Source: Saccoglossus kowalevskii
Lineage: Eukaryota > Hemichordata > Enteropneusta > Harrimaniidae
Reading direction: 5' to 3'
NCBI RefSeq assembly: GCF_000003605.2
Contig: NW_003126884.1
Coordinates: forward strand, 295,645-354,931
Length of the DNA: 59,287 nucleotides
Part shown: positions 859-57,500 of the stretch, one piece after another
How positions within the stretch are numbered: the first letter of the stretch is position 1
How the letters are laid out: every line of letters starts with the position of its first letter
Made by a program: the position numbers and the translations under genes
The notes under the pieces: generated by a model
The model's input: the letters and a program-made list of their open reading frames with translations, nothing else
The model's database searches: none
What the model was told of the DNA's origin: nothing

Positions 859-3800
859 TATTGTTTGTACTGCTCTTCTTTCTGACAACACCAGCTGTTA
901 TCTTAGCTGGTTTAGATGATATCAACTATCAGAAGGCGTTTGAAAACTTACATGTGAGTATATAGAGAAGAGAATAATACATTTACAAAATTATCGCCGT
1001 TTTTGCCAACCAGTTTTTTTTTTGAAATTTACAGATAATTTATGCTGTTGTAATAAGTAGTAACAAATATGAAGAAATTTCGCAAATGTTTGCAGTAATA
1101 TTAACACACCTTAGAAATTATGTCTTGAAACTTTTCTGATTTCTGCATTAAAGTATGCACTCTTTAATGATAACTTAATTAATACCTCCATTCAGTCGGC
1201 AGAAACTTGATACCCCCACATGATGTGCTCATGCATTCATTCTATGATCCGATTCAAGATGTGAGACTGAGAAATTTTAGTTCTAAAAGTTGCACCAAAA
1301 TCACTCATACCGATCGTTGTCTGTTACATGCCTGGCCCTGTTTTGCATTCACGCTTCAAAAGATGCATGAATTTTTTTTTATTGTAATCAACTTTATACA
1401 TAAATTTTATCCAGGAATACCAGAATATAATCATAAACTCACGTTTCTGTAATGCATGTAATACATACTGATATTTTACATTTTTTACAGTCACCATTTG
1501 TGTCTCAGTTCTTACCAACTCTGTTACTGTGGACGTTAGCTGCTCTCTTACCCGTGCTGGTATATTGGTCAAGCTCCTTTGAAGCACATTGGACTAAGAC
1601 AGATGAAAACCACATTGTCATGAGAAAAACGTTTTTCTTTCTTCTCTTTATGCTGCTTATTTTACCATCTCTAGGACTTACCAGGTGCAAATTATAATAA
1701 ATTATGCATTATGTTTCCATATAGGATATATTTTATTATCATAATATAAACCTCGGATATTTTATTTTAGTCTAAGTTCACCAATCATGAGTAATTTTTT
1801 TTTTGCATAAATATATGAGTAATGCGCTGAACTTGTATACTTAAATATGTATTTATGCAAATGTGCACTCTAGCATGTGAATGCTGTTTAGTGATTAATA
1901 TTGGTATTCAATAATGATATTTGTACCATTCTCAGATTATGGAATTTTTAATTTCAAGCAATGTTTTTGAACTACGAATAAACACACAAGCTTGCCAATA
2001 TGGAACATGTTAAGTATGTAGTTGTCTGACTGCATACACAAACCAGGAAGTTCTGGATAACCGTTTGGTAGCATGTACAATGAAAACAAGTTCACTGTTT
2101 GTCTTAGGGAAACCCCCAGTGAAATATTCATTTGCACAATCAAATGCATGTTCTGCAGTATTTATACTGATCGATTCATGTCATTGTTACTTTCTGATTA
2201 CAGTGCTCAAGCTTTTTTTGAATGGTCTCTGAGTAATGAAGAATCTATCAAAATGCGATGGAAGTAAGTGTTGTATTGCACACATTGGCCATCATTATCA
2301 TAAACAAAATTTATGTTGTTTTTGAATTGAATTTTTAGCTCCGCTGTCGACTTTGCCGAGCGGAGCTTATCATATGAGTGATTGTCCGTCGTCCGTGTCA
2401 ATGTTTTACTTTTTCGACTTCTTCTTGAAAACTACAAGCCTGAATGCTTTGATACTTGGTGTATATGCACCTTGGGTAAACCTCTCTTAGATTTGTTCAT
2501 TTCATAATGATATCTTCAATTCTCTAATTTTGGTGAATATTTTTGTCATTTTTGGTAAAAAGGGATATTTTCAACATTTTCAACTTCTTGTTAAAAACCA
2601 AAAGTCCAATTGCTTTGATATTACGGTACATATATAGGTACTACATGTGAACCTCTCTCAGATTTGTTCATTTTGTGATGATATCTTCAATTCTCTAATT
2701 TTGGTTAACATTTTTGGTAAAAAGTGATATTTTCGAATTCTTGTTGCTTTGATACCATGCATATTGTTCCTTTTCTAATGTTATCTTCAGTTTTTCAATT
2801 GAAATGTGCATTACTAACAGCGGAGCTATCTCAGCCAACAGTTATCTCTATTATAACATCTCTATTTACCAAGATGTAACATCCTCCTTTACTGAATAAA
2901 TTACAGTGCTTTACAATACCATGACTTGAAACTACTAAAAATTTATATGAATTATAAGAAACTGTAGAAATTCCCCTCTCCTTAATTAATGCTCTAAACT
3001 ATTTATGTTTGTGTTTCTAGTTGTATATTTTTACCCGACAATGGTGCATTCTTTGTCAACTATGTCATCACCTGTGCATTAGCTGGCACTGCTTTAGAAA
3101 TTATTAGACTGCCGGAATTGATCTATTATGGGTGCAATATGCTATGGACAAAGTCTGAAGCTGAGAAGATCACCAAACGAAGGGTGAGTTTATAATAATG
3201 ACAACTTCAACTAAAATATGTTCTGTGCATTGTATATGCTGCGATATAATTGCAAATATTCATCCTCCTAGCCAATCACCACCAGACTACATTCAAATGA
3301 ATGTCTAATGGAATTCTTTGCTGAAATTATGAGTAATAGACACTTTCTCCATTAACATCTATATCGTAGAGGTATAAAAAAAGATGCATGCATGATTTTG
3401 TATGTTTTCTCAGTGGAGTTCATGGAGTTTTTGACTCCCGTGTGCGAAGCACACAATGGGAGTCTTTGCAGTTACCCTGTCTGTATATGTGTATGTGTGT
3501 GTGTGTATGTGTGTCCTTCTTGTCCACTGATATCTCAAGAACCATACATCGTTTTTTGATGAAACTTGGTGTATAGATGCTCTGGGCCAATGCGCTGATT
3601 TGATTAGGTTTTGGTAGAAATCCATGCATATTAATTACCTAATTTGCATGATAATTAGCTCATTTTTAGCTGTTCCATGACTGTTCCACTGATATCTAAA
3701 GAACTACTTATTGGATTATGATGAAACTTGGTTCATAGATGCTTTGAACTAATGCCAGGTTTTGATTAGTTTTGGGTGAAAATCTGTGCACATTAATTAC

Positions 3801-6800
3801 CTAATTTGCATAATGATTAGTAAATTTTCGGCTTTTCCACTGATATCTCAACTACTAATCATCACATATCAATGAAACTTAGTACCTAGATGTCATAGGA
3901 CACTGCACAGACCTACCGGTAGTAGTTTTTAGGGTAATATCAGTACATACTAATTACCTAATTTGCATAATAAATTAATTTTCAACTTTTGATATTTCAA
4001 GTAGTAAGCATTACATTTCAATGAAACATGGTACATAGATACTCAAGGACTATGCAGAGATCGATTGTTTTGGGATAAATATTTGTGCATATGAATCACC
4101 TAATTTGCATAATTAGTTAATTTTCGGATTTTCACGTATATCTCAAGTACTAATCATCACATTTCAATGAAACTTGGTACATAGATCCTCTAGGACTATG
4201 CAGAGATCTGATTAGTTTTGGGGTAAATAATTATATATATTAATTAACTTATTTGCATAATTATTTAATTTTCAGCTTTTTCACTGATATCTCGAGTACC
4301 GGTACTTATCATCACCTTTAAATGAAACTTTGTACATAGATGCTCTAGAACAATGTACAAATATGATCAGTTTTGGGTTAAAATCTGTTCATATAAATTC
4401 CCTAATTAGCCTAATAATTCATAATTGTTCTGATCACATTTCAATGAAACTTGATACATAGATGGTCTGTTACATTGCGCAGACCTTATTAGTTTTACAC
4501 TCTGTTCATTTTAATTTTCTGATTTGCATAATTAGTTTTCAGTTTTTCCATCAATATCTCAAGTACAAGTAATTTTGAATTAATTTTTACTGTGTCTCTA
4601 ATACTCTCAGCACACAGAAGTTCTTTCTAAGCTTTCTTTGATTATTGCTGTTGTTTCTGTACAGGAGTTGGCTTATGAATTCCAGTTTGGTATACAGTAT
4701 GCCTGGATGTTGTGTATATTTACTATTGTAGTTGTCTATGGTATCACCTGTCCTCTCATTGTACCATTTGGTGAGTATATTTGTTTATCAGTTCTGACTT
4801 TAGTTTTTTTGCAGATTCCTCAATAGTTTTCTCATGTGTTATCTCCCTCCTGTCCACTAGAATTGCCATTTTCATTGAATCTCATGTCCACTGGCTGGGA
4901 CTGGTATACTTCCATAAAACCTTATGTTCATTGAGACTAGTACAAGAACCACCTGTTCACTGGGACTGACACCTTTCCCATATGTGTCATTTACCCTAGC
5001 TCCTATCTATTTTTCACACTTTTATTGTCCACTCAGACTGGCACTTTCATTATAAAAACCACCAGTCCCATATTTGGCGTTTGCCCTCCTGTCCCACATG
5101 TGGTATTCCTCCTCCTATCACCTTTGTGTTTGCGTCCTTTGTCCACTAGGGTACTGTAAAATCTGTATTAAAAGCCGCGGCTTCTATTAAAATGGTACAA
5201 TGCAACAGAGGGGATGCGGCTTCTATTAGAGCATCTACACATATGAGAAATGATGAATTTTTGGGTCTCAATTGTTAAAAAAGAATGGGTGTGGCTTCTA
5301 TTAGGGATGCGGCTTTTAGGTAGTACTTTTATAGAACTGTTCCTATGAGAATGCTAAGTAAAATAATTGCTTGATATTATTTACAGGTTTGCTGTATATG
5401 GTGTTGAAACATATGGTAGATAGATACAATATCTATTTTGCTTATGCGCCCTCTCGAATTGATAAAGGAATACACAATTCAGCTGTCAACTATGTCATCA
5501 TCTCGGCAGTATTTTTGCAATGTTCTATACTATTCTTCTCTGTCATCAGACTAGGTATGTTATTGCTTTCAGAGATAACGTCAGTTTTTTCTGGCTTAAT
5601 ATGCTTAACTGTGGATATGTAACAACCATATAAACCATTGCTACATACTGATACAAACTTGTATTTCTAAAGAAGCAATAATTTATATTATTATTATTTA
5701 TCTTGTCTTGAAATATATACCCTAAGCTGCTAAGATGAGATTTTTACATTCAGTGTTTGATATATTAAAATACCATGATAATATGTAAAAGTGCATTGTC
5801 AGATTTATTTGCATATGCAATTTTAAAAGAGCAAATTGTGTACATTAAGTATACTTTAATGCAACACAATTTGGTATAGAATGGGAAGTATTTGTGATTT
5901 AGAACATAGCAATAAGAACATTCAACTCAAAGGATTCTTTGTCAAGTTTTGTGTGTTAATAACATACAAATTTCTCTTATATGTGCTTTCAGGTTCTCTG
6001 GATCCAAGGACTATTGTATCTGCTGTTGTACTTATATTAATTTTAGGTCTGCTTATAGCAAAGACCTGTTTCAATCTGTGGATGGGTTTTATACCCCATG
6101 CATATGAGGAATTTACTAATCTAGAAGAACCAGTATCTCAAGAGGAGGAACCCACTGTGAGTAGTCTGTCTTGTTGTGACTGTATTCATTACTACAGTGT
6201 TTCAGATTGTAGTCTTGAAATAAGGAAATGTTGAGTTCAGTTGAATTGAAAAACAGTAGAGAAACCTACAGTGTCTTTATTAGTTCCATTTCGATTCAGT
6301 CCAAAAACAGAGACTTGTGTTTTGACCTCCATGTGTCCATCTATGCATCTCCGACTGTATCTTGGACATGCCTATAATCCGATCACATTCAAACTTCACA
6401 AATACATCATATATCTTGGGCGACATATGATTTTATTTCATGATCAAATTCAAGATGACCAAATAGCAGAAATGCTAGAAATTCATCAAAATCAAACATT
6501 TATGCCATTCCGGAACCAGACCTTCGTAGTGTATGGTCACATGTCATTCAAACTTACATTGAACATTATAGGGCTTTGTTGCATGTCATTTTGATCGGTT
6601 TCAAAATGGCTGACATTTTTATTTTAATGGAAGTTCTGGAACTTTATCTCAGACATGTCCTTACTGTGTTCATTCAAACTTTACATATACTACACATTGC
6701 ATGTGTGCGTATTTATTTGGTTATCGGATTCAAGTTGGTTGTATATTAAAAATTAGTCAAAAACAAGCATTAATTTCTGCAATTTTGGTTCCTGGTCATG

Positions 6801-30026: not shown

Positions 30027-30335
30027 AAGCTAAATGTGAAAGCGGCTAAAAGCACAGAGCAATTGCACTAGAGAAATCTCTCGAGTGTCTTTGCGCAGAG
30101 TAAACACAATCTACTCACAGTTCCTGTCTCAATTATGTATGTGCATTATACAATTCAGTCTCGATTAATTATCATATAAACTATTTAGTGAGTGTTACAT
30201 TATTGAGTTTCCTTTAGTTACACCACTATTTGACTCGTCGTTATTGGTCAATGTATGCCATTTATTTTACGTAACCGACACTTCAAATCTATTCATAGTC
30301 GTCTACTCGCAGATAAGAATAACGTATTGTTATCT

Positions 30336-30358
30336 CACAGTCCCTCAGAGGGACTGTG
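30336..30358. mobile_element. Mini-hairpin insertion, copy 1 (23 bp, 7-bp target duplication)
   Basis: Arms CACAGTCCCTC (30336-30346) and GAGGGACTGTG (30348-30358) are exact reverse complements around one A. Identical GTTATCT repeats flank it directly (30329-30335 and 30359-30365). Same pattern as copies 2 and 3. Confidence 0.75.
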
Positions 30359-30365
30359 GTTATCT

Positions 30366-45500: not shown

Positions 45501-48500
45501 CAGATCTGTGTTATTTTTTCCCCTAGGGAAATAAAACACAATATGAGGAACATATTCACAAAATACATCAATGGATACAGTTAATTGCGTTTTTATTAAC
45601 ATTTTTATTTCACTATATACCCCAATAAAACACTGTATGTCGTAAGTAAGTATACATATCGCTATTTTTTGTGACGTGCATAAAACAGTTATCTATTAAT
45701 AAAGTCTGTTATTACAAAGGTTTAACAATGGTAAACCATAATCTGTGAAATTATGATTTATTGACCAAATTTCGGTAAGCAACATAGTAATCAGTAAATT
45801 GAAATATAATCACCATAGGAACCAACAGCAAACATTTTAAAATTTGACAAATTGATCAATTTTTAGTAAATTTTCGATAATTTCACTGTTTTTCTCTAAA
45901 CTAAAATTGTTTGGTGAAAGCAATTACATTGATTCAAGCATTACCGTAATTGGAATACAAAATGTCAATACAACTGACGGTTGGATGATAATTTATACAT
46001 TAAGACATACCATACTTATCGATATATAGAAATCTACAATTATACATCCAATCACCGCTTGTCAACTCAAAAATACAAATAATCAATCACAGGAAGCTTT
46101 AAAGAACTCCCGTGTGCTGAGATAATAACTAATAAGGTTTCATGGAAATGTTCATTAGACCCAAAAATATATAAATTATTATATGTAAATTTAGTAATTA
46201 ATATTAAAACAGATTTTAACCAAAAACTTACCAGGACTTTTGTTACATTGTCCTATGACATCTATGTACGAAGTTTCATTGAAATGGAATAATTAGTACT
46301 TGAAATATCAATGTAAAAGCCGAAAATTGACTAATTATGCAAATTAGTGTATTAGGTAATTAATATGCACAGATATTAACCCAAAACTAATCAGGTATGT
46401 ACATTGTTCCATGGCAACTATGTACCAGGTTTCATTGAATTGGAATAATTAGTACTTGAGACATTGGCGTAAAAGCAGAAAATTTAGTAATCATTAAGCA
46501 AACATCTGTGCATTAGTCCAGACATAGACCCTCCAGTAGAGGGTCTATGGTCCAGAGCATCTATGTACCAAGTTTCATCAAAATCCAATGAGTGGTTCTT
46601 CAGATATCAGTGAAACAGTCTTGGAACAGCTAAAAATTAGCCAATTATCATGCAAATTAGGTAATTAATATGCATTGTGTGCTTTGAACACACAGGAGTC
46701 AAAAAAGAACACAGCAATTTAATGAAGTATACACACACACCTCCAGTTGATCATCTGTTAGTAACTGGACTACAATATTCTGTATCTCGGTAGTGAAATC
46801 TTTATTTGACGTCATAATAAACATGTTGTAGAAGACCATAACCTGAGTGTAATTCAAGATGCTGACCCGACTGTGCCACGAACTGCTTGAAGCAATCTGT
46901 AAGCAATAAAACAAGTGAAATGAGATTCGTGATGCTCAAGGGATATTTACGACATGTGTGTGCGTGACTGAGTAACAGGGCTAACAAGTACGTGTGGCCT
47001 GGAATTCAAGAGCTAAAATTAACAAAGAAATTCACGTATTCATAGTAGCCAATTACTACGAAAGCATGATAATGCATTGTTTGGTTGGTTGATACATGAA
47101 CGACAAACATCAATTACGCATCAGGAGTATATCTGCTCTACTACATCATTTTATAATATTTCTATGGAAGTATACTTATTTATCAAGAGAAGCAGGTTAA
47201 GAAAAGATTTACTATGAATGCTGGCAAATTATTGACCATTGTTGATAATGTGGAGCTTTCATAGTGAAGAATAGTAGACCAATTTGTCAAGATTGGCTAT
47301 TCAAGTGTACATGTATGTTAGATCACGACACCCAGCAGTCAGTGAAACTGATACTAAACGTTAAAGCAAGTGTCCCCATTCACAGAAAGCTCAGTGAATG
47401 TTAAACAAGCATCAAATCAATTTGGGATTTCAATATTAAAGTGTAGGTGTCAAGCGCAGTGTTTAGAAATAAGAATAAAGCTGTCAGCAACGAATGACTC
47501 ACTAATAGTGAATGTCAAGTTTCTCATCTACATTGCTGACAGTTATGTTAATTATAGAATGCCAGGGAAACAATTCTTTTCCTTTTAAAGATTAATTGGA
47601 AAGGATTTTCAAAACTAACAAAGTGTCATTTGTGCAATGATCGAAATGTGCAATCGATACAGGTGGTTCTGTTTTCAAGAAAAAAAAAAAAAAAAAAATT
47701 AAACAAGTTGCATCCAATCACCATATTACCATAATTTCTATGAATTCAGAACAGGTTTTGTGCAGTAACAGACATTCCCAAAAACTTTTTTTTGATGTAT
47801 CTATTCTTGAATACGAACATCAGGCATCAAATAATCACTATTGCTACACTATGGCAAGTCAAGGCTAAATGTTTCGCCAATTTGAATTTGGCAGAAAAGG
47901 ATGTAAAAATAAGCCTAATATTGATAGATGAACAGTGATAAACATAGCACTGGGTAACTTGCATCAAATGCATTCACACGAAAAGATGAAAACTTAAATG
48001 ATTACAATGTATCACTTTAAAGAAACAATTATGCAAAAAAAAAACCCCATTAATGTGATGCAAGAGCTGTTGCAAAGAAAAGCACATTCAGGTAATTCAA
48101 ACACAAGATGTACCACTAATGCTGCAGTTGTGTATCCATTTCGTTCCAGTGATGATGAAATTTATCTAACCAAGATTTAAAAAAAGATTAATTATTAAAA
48201 GCATGGGATCAGGATTACCGGACACCCTAAATCCTAGGATTATGCCTAGCATAACATTGGCACACTACGCACAAGCGTGTTTTTTTTTTCTCGTTTAATT
48301 TTTGGGCCTAGAGGAGTCCGCTAAATGTCATGGCTTCAATCACATATCAGCTTTTGATGAATCTAATCCATTAATACTAAACTAGCACAAGGATAAAAAA
48401 TATGATATGCCTGGTAATGAATAATCTTTTCTTACACGCGGCCTACAAGGCAATCAAATGACTGGGGGGCAATATATGTTAATTATTGAACCTGTGTCTA

Positions 48501-54500: not shown

Positions 54501-57500
54501 TTTTAATAATCTGATATACTAATAGTTCTATATTCTAAAAAGATATCGGCAAATATGAACATCATTATTTCTTGACTTCAGATAAGGAATGTCTGAGAAA
54601 TACCTACACAAGTTGGAAAACAAATCAGTACTCAAAAGTAAAGAGAATCAGAACACAAAACAAACTGACATGCCACGGTTTATGCTAAAACAAACAACCA
54701 CAAGAAATGATTCTCAGAATCTACATTAAATAGTCATTGTCAATGTCAATGACATAGTCATGAAAAAGTGACATACTATTTTAGCGAATTGACGTAATAG
54801 CTAAATGTTGATTTAGCGAATCTCTCTCGTCTTTGTTGATTTCCTGTTTTCACAATACTTGTCTGTCGCCTGCTAAAACTAACGCGCAGTTATCACCGCC
54901 ATAAAAACGAAGATAAACTAGTAAGTGTAATAAGGAAGCGCTCCAGATTATTACGTTTTCTGTGTTTACAAAGTGTGTGTGTGGAGAAAAAGATGTTGTT
55001 TGGTTGCCATTTTGAATTTATAATAAAGTCATTAGCGATATTTTAAATTAGCGAAATTGTTCTCTCGCCAAATTCGCGAAAAAGACATGTTTTACAGTGT
55101 ATATATATATATGACCTAATAATGCGATGTATGTGTGAAGTTAGAACTTGATCGACCCATGCATGTGTGACATACGAATGCAAACACGCACAAGTCCCCA
55201 TTTTCAAACAGGGAGTAAAATAGGAAAATCAGTTATATTTGTAAATAAGTATGAATGTATTGTGATATTTACTTACTTTCTCAAATGGCCAATGTTTGGA
55301 GCCTCGTATAAGGCCGGCAGTGAGCTCCGACAGACAACGTTGACCACTTTCCTGAGAGTCAACAGCTAATCGCTGCATATGAGGTTTAAAACGTTCTAAG
55401 AACGTGTCATCAAAATTCCTGAAAAGACCCTGTGAGAAATGAAAAGATATCATACAGCTTGAAATAATTCACATAATATCATAGTTAATACTGTAGAATA
55501 CTTTATTTTCACTTGGAATTTATTTTCGCTGAAAGGATGATTCAGTGAAAATAAAATCCAGCGAATATACTTTTTTCCCTATATTTCACATTCAACTCGT
55601 CAAAAATCAGTGAAAATAAATTCCATACAAAACACTCAAAATGCCTTTTCAGCGAAAATTAATTCCACCTAAAATAAAGTATTTCACAGTAGTTGATTTT
55701 CAACTGTCACAAATTATTTTGATCATATTTGTTATTTGTATCATGACAAAAAAATGTGTCAGCTTTTAAATTTTGAAGCAGCATAAATTTTCACTTCAAG
55801 AAATTTTCAGAATTTCAAGATTTCTTGTAAAGACAAAATTCATGAGTTCACAATTTTCACTGACAATATGTCTCATGAAATTTAATAACAGTTTACAGTA
55901 ATTCGGAAAAGACACAAAGACATTGTAGAACTTCCTATCAGATAGATTTACAATGCACAAAAACACAACATCTACAGAAACATTCCTTGAAAATCTAGAG
56001 AAAATATTTTCATCATGTGAACCACCAAGTTGAATTAGCGGACAATAAATGAATATTAACATTACCTTGAAGAGAATAAATTTTCTATTATTAAATCTAT
56101 CTTTGCCTTTCTTTTCTTCTAATGATAAATAACCTATAAATTTATCCACAAAATCTTGATTAATAAAACAATCGTAAATCATCTGCTCTCCCTGAAAAAA
56201 AGAAAGAAAATACACCATATTATTGTTTTTGTTCTGAATGCCCCTAAACTATACATACGGATACTATCCCACTGATTAATACAGTGGATTAGGGTTGATC
56301 CAGTGTAAGTTTGACACATGAACAAGTTTGTCCAAAGCAGAGGATGCTAATAGAAAAACATGGTTGCAATTATGTTTTCTTGTCCAAATGAGTATACTTG
56401 ATGGGGAACAGTTACAAAGTAAAAACAGTACAATCCATGTGATGTTGCTGATTCAAGGCTAAGGTCATTTGTGGACATTATGGTCATGAGCGCTATTTAT
56501 AAAAGGTGTACAGAAGCACATATAAACCAAATATTGCATTTTGTTGTATATTGTTTCATTATTTTGACTGTAGAAACACCTGTTATGAACATGTGCATAC
56601 TTGCTACTAATAAAAGCAAACACAATACTATTAGCAGCTTTCCGAGACACTGACAAACCCAAGGCATCAGTTTGGATTACATATAACATATATTGTGATC
56701 TGCTAGTACCTGTGATAGTTCATCTCTGCTTCTTCCTAGTTTGGGTTGTTCACTTGGCGGTGCATACATGTACATTGGTCTGTGTGAACAAACAAAAACA
56801 CATGTGATTATAAGTTTAAATGAAACCAAGCTAGGTACACTCATAGACCCTCTAACAGGAGGGTCTATGGTACACTAGAGAAATGGTTGATGACATATTG
56901 ACATGCTTTTTGGGGACTAAAATGGCCACTAATCGATCAAAATGAAAAAGAAATTGATGACCTACTGTATATACCATTATGTGTTGACAGGGTAATATGT
57001 TTATATGCTAAGTTTGAATAAAATAGGCACAGGCATGTATAACAAAAGGTTGCAAACTACTGTTAGGTTTATCTGAGAAAGAGATATTCATCTTTAATAC
57101 ATGAAATGAATCCTAAAAGTTCCTCAATTCAAATCTTTGGTTATTTTTTATAACCAAAGAAGAGAGAAGAGCGAACTAAAAAATATCCTCAGTTTAAAAT
57201 AACGTGCTACCATTATGCTACAGTGAATAACATGAATACTGTATATCATGCTGTTAAAGCCGAGCTATTGAAGCATTGTACAATAGATGCGTGTAGGAAT
57301 TGAGTTATATAATATATCAAATGATACATTGGGTTCACTGAGCAGGATGTAACACAGAGACTCATCTATGAATGACAAACCACAACTTTTGATTGTGTAA
57401 CCTCATCTCTTGAAATATTTATAAATTGACAAATTACAAACTCGCACGAAAATGCGCCCACCCACTCGCACATACGGAAATACGCCCACCCACTCAAACA

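Follow-up and report, generated by a model that had tools for sequence, protein, structure and literature searches.

We consider it very likely that the 27-bp hairpin at positions 46523-46549 of the window (the whole 59,287-bp stretch of Saccoglossus kowalevskii DNA that was analyzed) is a site repaired after the excision of a P-superfamily DNA transposon, i.e., a scar in which the two ends of a departed element have been joined between its target duplications.

A hairpin insert with an empty site in the same window

The insert is a near-palindrome (CATAGACCCTCCAGTAGAGGGTCTATG) with GTCCAGA on both sides (46516-46556; Table 1), its sequence being exactly as described in the original prediction. 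As had also been proposed, the paralogous repeat monomer on the reverse strand (~3600-3571) reads uninterrupted (..GCATTGGCCCAGAGCATC..) and is continuous without the insert; therefore, an empty site is present inside the window. The 27-mer matches itself alone in the window (once per strand) and had no match in 100 dinucleotide shuffles of the window (0/100). When the window was scanned without reference to the motif for 18-46 bp palindromes of the CA..TG type, bounded by identical 5-, 6-, 7-, 8-, or 9-bp repeats, exactly three came out, with 7-bp repeats each (46516-46556, 30329-30365, and 56835-56876), and none with 7-bp repeats appeared in 20 crude shuffles built from two-base blocks. The latter two were not mentioned in the original prediction. 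While the letters of the insert had been correctly given as 11 nt + CAGTA + 11 nt, it is better described as 17 nt of one element end and 10-11 nt of the other, overlapping in GAGGG.

The host repeat (window 3300-4415 and 46100-46700) comprises tandem ~150-bp monomers, a CA-rich microsatellite, and then a terminal hairpin (GACTCCC..GGGAGTC), a layout which we take to be reminiscent of Helentron-type HINE/Pearl elements.

Table 1. Positions in the window of the hairpin insert, its empty site, and the two further scars.
Feature	Position	Strand	Remarks
Left copy of target duplication	46516..46522	no strand	GTCCAGA, 7 bp
Left element end, 17 nt, family F2	46523..46539	+	CATAGACCCTCCAGTAG; matches both ends of the 1,829-bp element C4133:121974-123802 exactly
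Microhomology	46539..46543	no strand	GAGGG, common to both element ends; likeliest join point
Right element end	46539..46549	-	≤11 nt kept (GAGGGTCTATG)
Right copy of target duplication	46550..46556	no strand	GTCCAGA
Empty site	3571..3600	-	Paralogous repeat monomer without insert
Second scar	30329..30365	no strand	GTTATCT-CACAGTCCCTCAGAGGGACTGTG-GTTATCT
Third scar, family F1	56835..56876	no strand	GTACACT-CATAGACCCTCTAACAGGAGGGTCTATG-GTACACT

Genome-wide occurrence and target duplications

We scanned the whole 572-Mb assembly for the arm pattern CAYAGWCCCTC and found 333 places of 22-32 bp, 168 of 33-63 bp, and 7 of 64-94 bp, part of the last group being two adjacent scars. The reversed control of the pattern gave no places at 22-32 bp in the whole assembly. 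Flanks were compared at 40 places from the first 50 listed at 22-32 bp, 15 loci of 33-63 bp, and the 3 window copies (58 in total, or 57 once one place with a duplicated flank was removed). Among these 57 places, 42 displayed perfect 7-bp duplications and 9 had one mismatch (51/57), compared to 2 perfect and 29 one-mismatch pairs (31/3192) when the left flank of one place was set against the right flank of another. Perfect duplications at 6 bp or 8 bp were absent from the same 57 places (0/57), aside from which one TATATAT run was also perfect at 5 and 9 bp. L021, among the six places failing at 7 bp, has a duplication 8 nt farther out. The genome-wide arm search that had been suggested, scoring identical flanks against a control, thus came out in favor of a transposase-type insertion with a 7-bp duplication, which is strongly supported.

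A palindromic target with a 3+7+3 layout, T-N-N-[RTTNAAY]-N-N-A, is common to the 43 perfect sites (one with a duplicated flank), and 110 pooled sites, symmetrised computationally, show the same palindrome.

Three scars lie in the 59-kb window, where ~0.05 would be expected (501 arm-pattern places in 572 Mb). Across the F1 and F2 families, 14 pairs of places lie ≤30 kb apart (0.7 expected), of which three are the same scar, one represents the two ends of one element, and five share an identical context, leaving ~4 independent pairs. Scars may thus be clustered, through local hopping or an insertion preference.

End families and larger elements

The F2 end, CATAGACCCTCCAGTAG, occurs at 68 places in the genome. 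One convergent pair bounds a 1,829-bp element (C4133:121974-123802) with identical 33-bp inverted repeats (CATAGACCCTCCAGTAG AGGGATACGAAACTGC) and a GCGTATT duplication, and joining its ends at the 5-bp microhomology GAGGG gives the 27-bp hairpin exactly, letter by letter. The suggestion of joined ends left after the loss of a larger element is therefore supported, as same-ended elements exist and their ends predict, by microhomology, the very junction seen. The accompanying expectation of longer, same-ended elements with a 7-bp duplication and a transposase held in part; this F2 element has the ends and the duplication, but no transposase was read inside it, its interior being partly an assembly gap.

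In a further family, F4, the 17-mer end is found at 293 places genome-wide, and elements of 616 bp and 318 bp carry duplications of GATACAT and ATTTCAC, respectively. A 616-bp element with P-type ends (L123, C172:142500-143260) contains, at 115-162, a 34-bp scar of a further family (CATAGACCTTAGAAAGAGATTTCTAAGGTCTATG) with an ATTGTAC duplication, which is nested activity of two families. The motif-free scan for 7-bp duplications also yielded scars of more end families, at L055 1419-1470, L046 1453-1501, L047 2564-2604, and L015 412-443 (CACAGTCACTC, CATGGAACTATAAACCC, CATAGACCTTG, and CATGGAGCT, respectively). Several such end families have been active in this genome.

Two long elements with P transposase domains

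Searching with the profile of the RNase H domain of P transposases (PF21787) returned 13 places in the assembly and matches in none of 14 control genomes (0/14). Extended flanks were checked at 5 of the 13, with ends found at 2, and the other 8 were viewed with a 1.5-kb flank. The best place (1.1e-27) lies inside C1630:10113-18054, a 7.9-kb element with perfect 30-bp ends (CACCGTCCCTCAACACCCGGTTAAGAAACG), and the second best (3.5e-27) inside C2039:386836-395726, an 8,891-bp element (50 of these N) with perfect 30-bp repeats (CATAGACCCTCAACAAAGGGATAGGAAACA) and CTTTGAC on both sides; the inverted ends of the F2 element are 33 bp. The C2039 ends have CATAGACCCTC and GGGATAGGAAAC in common with F1, with one base fewer between them, and F2 has GGGATACGAAAC.

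The C1630 frames match, in order, PF21787 (RNaseH_N, 1.1e-27), PF21788 (GTP-binding insertion, 3.7e-6), and PF21789 (RNaseH_C, 1.2e-6), with PF21788 matched again in a second frame at 6.7e-5, slightly under its cut-off. For the 610-aa C1630 frame, the best PDB sequence match is the Drosophila P transposase (6p5a, E 0.0048). C2039 displayed PF21787 alone of the three P-transposase domains, and its frame had no PDB sequence match. A THAP domain was absent from the 14 open frames scanned, where small exons could escape detection. Judged by their predicted domains, the two elements appear to belong to the P superfamily, yet not to canonical P.

This has a bearing on the hAT and Dada leads of the original prediction, which we set aside given that the transposase domains inside the two long elements, whose ends are near-identical, are of the P superfamily. 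Excision by a transposase from outside this superfamily (hAT, Dada, or one not yet described), also leaving long tails, is very unlikely: the C2039 ends that share CATAGACCCTC and GGGATAGGAAAC with F1 flank a P transposase domain, even though the link to P goes via near-identical, not identical, ends (C2039 and C1630) and a transposase was seen in no element with F1 or F2 ends. hAT elements make 8-bp duplications and are not known to leave their own ends behind. When hAT was considered by its 8-bp duplication, 0/57 places were perfect.

Several observations count against the P-type excision scar here. Besides the THAP domain not found and the C2039 frame that had no PDB match, the flanks of the C1630 element differ (AGTGGGT / GCAATAC), and a complete F1 element was found nowhere among the F1 contexts examined. 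In the stretches examined of C4066, C3768, and C662, a complete end pair was absent.

Scars and intact ends among the places examined

The F1 17-mer occurs at 51 places genome-wide, 48 of which were examined with context, all distinct. Of these, 45 are scars with a 7-bp duplication ≤40 nt away (39 perfect, 6 one-mismatch), where a one-mismatch 7-mer within 40 positions arises by chance in ~1 context in 20 (assuming equal base frequencies). One is an element end (L102), continuing into the inner repeat AGGGATAGGAAAC, and two (L096 and L098, two mismatches each) fall clearly into neither group. For F2, 46 of the 68 places were examined with context, 41 being distinct; 35 are scars (33 perfect, 2 one-mismatch), four are element ends (two at L143 and one each at L149 and L163), and L145 and L160 fall clearly into neither group. 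L102, L149, and L163 were read at one element end each. With 16 F4 ends chosen outside the hairpin listings, 9 had a nearby duplication with ≤1 mismatch, 2 (L139 and L141) continue as element ends, and 5 fall clearly into neither group, including L142, whose one-mismatch match at 2 nt was left out of the count of duplications.

Scars thus greatly outnumber intact ends among the places examined, which is unusual, as is the size of this natural record, although the excess is possibly inflated since assemblies can break at long elements (there is a gap within the F2 element, too) and the end searches require exact 17-mers. Because scars so outnumber intact ends (45 vs. 1 in F1; 35 vs. 4 in F2), it is conceivable, if improbable, that excision was directed rather than incidental, e.g., by a host-used transposase that is proficient in excision and poor in insertion, or by systematic removal in the lineage or the sequenced tissue, with a readable scar left at each former site.

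Some scars (L176, L173, L101, and L084) keep little or none of one element end, as in L176 (ATTTCAC-CATAGACCCTCCAGTAG-ATTTCAC), where the duplications are nonetheless kept. Scars that keep one end only therefore cannot be mobile units.

Junctions

Among the 45 F1 junctions, 25 display microhomology (6 bp in 16 of them), 6 are blunt, and 14 contain filler; the 35 F2 junctions comprise 25 with microhomology (5 bp in 17 of them), 3 blunt, and 7 with filler. There are 24 distinct inserts in the F1 scars and 16 in the F2 scars. We enumerated the microhomologies between the two ends of each family (for F1, the single end L102 was used for both sides) and obtained CATAGACCCTCTAACAGAGGGTCTATG as the top predicted product for F1 and CATAGACCCTCCAGTAGAGGGTCTATG for F2, each tied with its own reverse complement. 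These predicted products are also the commonest scars (16/45 in F1 and 17/35 in F2), that of F2 being the 46523-46549 insert itself. The recurrence of an identical insert at this frequency counts against an excision scar, as it is what would be expected of a mobile unit; we read it as recurrent microhomology joining.

The mobile unit in question would be a stand-alone, ultra-short hairpin MITE, a 23-36 bp palindrome moved by a transposase in trans, which the original prediction had offered as a self-sufficient alternative. The places do number in the hundreds, and the same 27-bp insert stands between 7-bp duplications in both families at the frequencies above. We nevertheless regard this explanation as extremely unlikely: the elements' own microhomology predicts the repeated insert, for F1 and F2 separately, the remaining inserts are varied, one-ended scars still carry duplications, and sizes drop off at 34-36 bp plus filler. 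MITE copies would have two intact ends and a common core, where we found one-ended scars, cores that vary between copies, and arms that end at 17-21 nt.

A few junctions are more complex. In L025 (C310:60580-61610, ~485-530), a 46-bp scar between CGCCAAT repeats has the first 14 nt of the end repeated, like templated filler. The scar at L014/L093 (C139:143850-147000) adjoins a tandem repeat (~395 bp) made from the scar's right flank and terminating in another element end, which looks as though either a templated repair had taken a complex course or the assembler had fused two haplotypes. A scar within a scar occurs at C17:24916-24983, where a hairpin of the CATGGAAGGT type, placed between repeats of GATAGAG, splits a CACAGTCCCTC hairpin, and at C3085:28371-28457 a repeated 7-mer, CTCTGAG, is common to two hairpins.

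Arm-length ceiling

Compared against the 33-nt ends, all 80 F1 and F2 scars (80/80) have a right arm of ≤18 nt and a left arm of ≤21 nt, where the left arm was anchored at 17 nt by the search and inserts of ≤56 nt were countable. None of these 80 scars retains the inner third of the repeat at its ends, and left arms of up to 21 nt occur mostly where an extra AGGG is common to both ends. The single partial exception, for which an excision scar is no simple fit, is L100 (C3235:161330-161520), in which the right side corresponds to repeat positions 15-35 with the terminal 14 nt gone. The insert in L100 is 49 bp long, between ATTACGC repeats, and its filler (GAGATCTTTAC) matches the flank inverted.

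A third family with unrelated ends (CATGGARCT) occurs at 340 places genome-wide, and among the 50 matches listed of these 340, none exceeded 36 bp (0/50), with 42 bp allowed. Of the 20 copies examined for duplications, 15 were perfect and 1 had one mismatch (16/20), while swapped flanks gave no perfect and 3 one-mismatch matches in 380 pairs. The limit in this third family corresponds to 18+18 nt, and joins of 17+17 nt occur in F4 and F5 (CACAGTCCCTCAACACC); therefore, the inner cut would lie at 17-18 nt. Against its exact placement stand the 17+17 joins of some families, the 18+18 joins of others, and the left arms of ≤21 nt in F1 and F2.

Internal deletion via replication slippage or aborted gap repair, unconnected to excision, is hardly credible, as it predicts breakpoints throughout the interior where 80/80 scars have both ≤21 nt from an end, and the range of 64-94 bp holds just 7 places, a few of which are pairs of neighboring scars; deletions of this kind are known for P elements, and many of the junctions do show microhomology.

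Proposed sequence of events

From what was observed (the duplications, the arm-length ceiling, the junction spectrum, and elements whose ends are the same or nearly so), we infer an excision event, its cut position, and a repair pathway. As the 7-bp duplication suggests, GTCCAGA would first have received an element whose ends read CATAGACCCTCCAGTAG... The transposase would then have excised it with a long stagger, cleaving one strand at the end of the element and its partner ~17-18 nt inside, as the arm-length ceiling and Drosophila P biochemistry suggest, such that the host would keep both 7-bp duplications and a 17-18 nt tail per end. Finally, to judge by the junctions, end joining would have closed the break, at 46539-46543 by annealing GAGGG and at other loci through joins that are blunt, use 1-2 bp of microhomology, or contain filler. 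A point against this reading is that duplications are 7 bp here vs. 8 bp in canonical P.

Significance and comparison with known systems

The chemistry of P excision is known from Drosophila laboratory work; the scars described here form a natural, genome-wide set. No earlier report of genome-wide P scars was found among the matches listed from the open-licence literature (one may exist beyond these), where the titles listed for the end letters also included no transposon study. Such a set lets sequence alone reveal the likely cleavage stagger, end-joining preferences, and past sites of P-type insertion, even for families in which intact copies are scarce or were not seen. Caution is advised as well, as hairpins of 20-36 bp with target duplications are not necessarily mobile elements. 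Taken together, the scars hint at the cutting position of the enzyme, and the combination of a 17-18 nt ceiling with a 7-bp duplication, seen in families that differ in sequence, can be tested in Galileo-like transposases, for which the portions of the literature searched gave no statement of the cut site.

According to excerpts of the respective papers, two P-type systems share limited features with the scars. The ends of zebrafish Pdre2/THAP9 likewise start with CATA, and THAP9 excises, with integration absent in those assays, whereas its duplications are 8 bp and its ends 13 bp (PMC10983969). In the P-MITEs of Anopheles gambiae, which are non-autonomous and derived from P, two inverted ends and duplications are likewise present; however, these elements keep internal sequence, have 8-bp duplications, and are described as mobile copies rather than joined ends (PMC1562414).

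Galileo, a member of the P superfamily in Drosophila, is similar in its 7-bp duplications and in a palindromic target that extends past the duplication, the Galileo-like feature found here being a 7-bp target duplication at a GT..AC palindrome. The target consensus is GTANTAC in Galileo and RTTNAAY here, with T and A three bases outside (excerpts of PMC4168063 and PMC2775673). Its ends are long and internally repetitive, unlike the 30-33 bp ends seen here, and the excerpts of the same two papers make no mention of a scar population. The putative placement beside Galileo is based on duplication and target.

A parallel in mechanism is offered by Drosophila P. According to excerpts of the published work, the P transposase cleaves one strand at the end of the element and its partner 17 nt further in (PMC7776569), and the P{wa} excision products include both duplications intact with the 17-nt tails joined, as well as products with one or both tails lost (PMC2895639, Table 1). 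Some P{wa} junctions are blunt and others contain templated filler, while microhomology, where present, spans 1-3 bp or 5-10 bp, the latter in 29% of junctions in spn-A mutants (PMC2895639). The scars resemble these products in the duplications kept, the tails joined, and the types of junction, and the ends of both systems begin with CAT (PMC2895639). They differ in that the Drosophila duplications are 8 bp and the products were scored in the laboratory, whereas the scars here are natural, number in the hundreds, and have 7-bp duplications and a 17-18 nt ceiling. The sum of ceiling and duplication is 25 in both the third family (18+7) and, from the same partial sources, Drosophila P (17+8), possibly a coincidence or possibly a fixed geometry of the complex. 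By analogy, then, the process that made the scars appears to work like P excision, matching it in the tested features, with the exception of duplication length.
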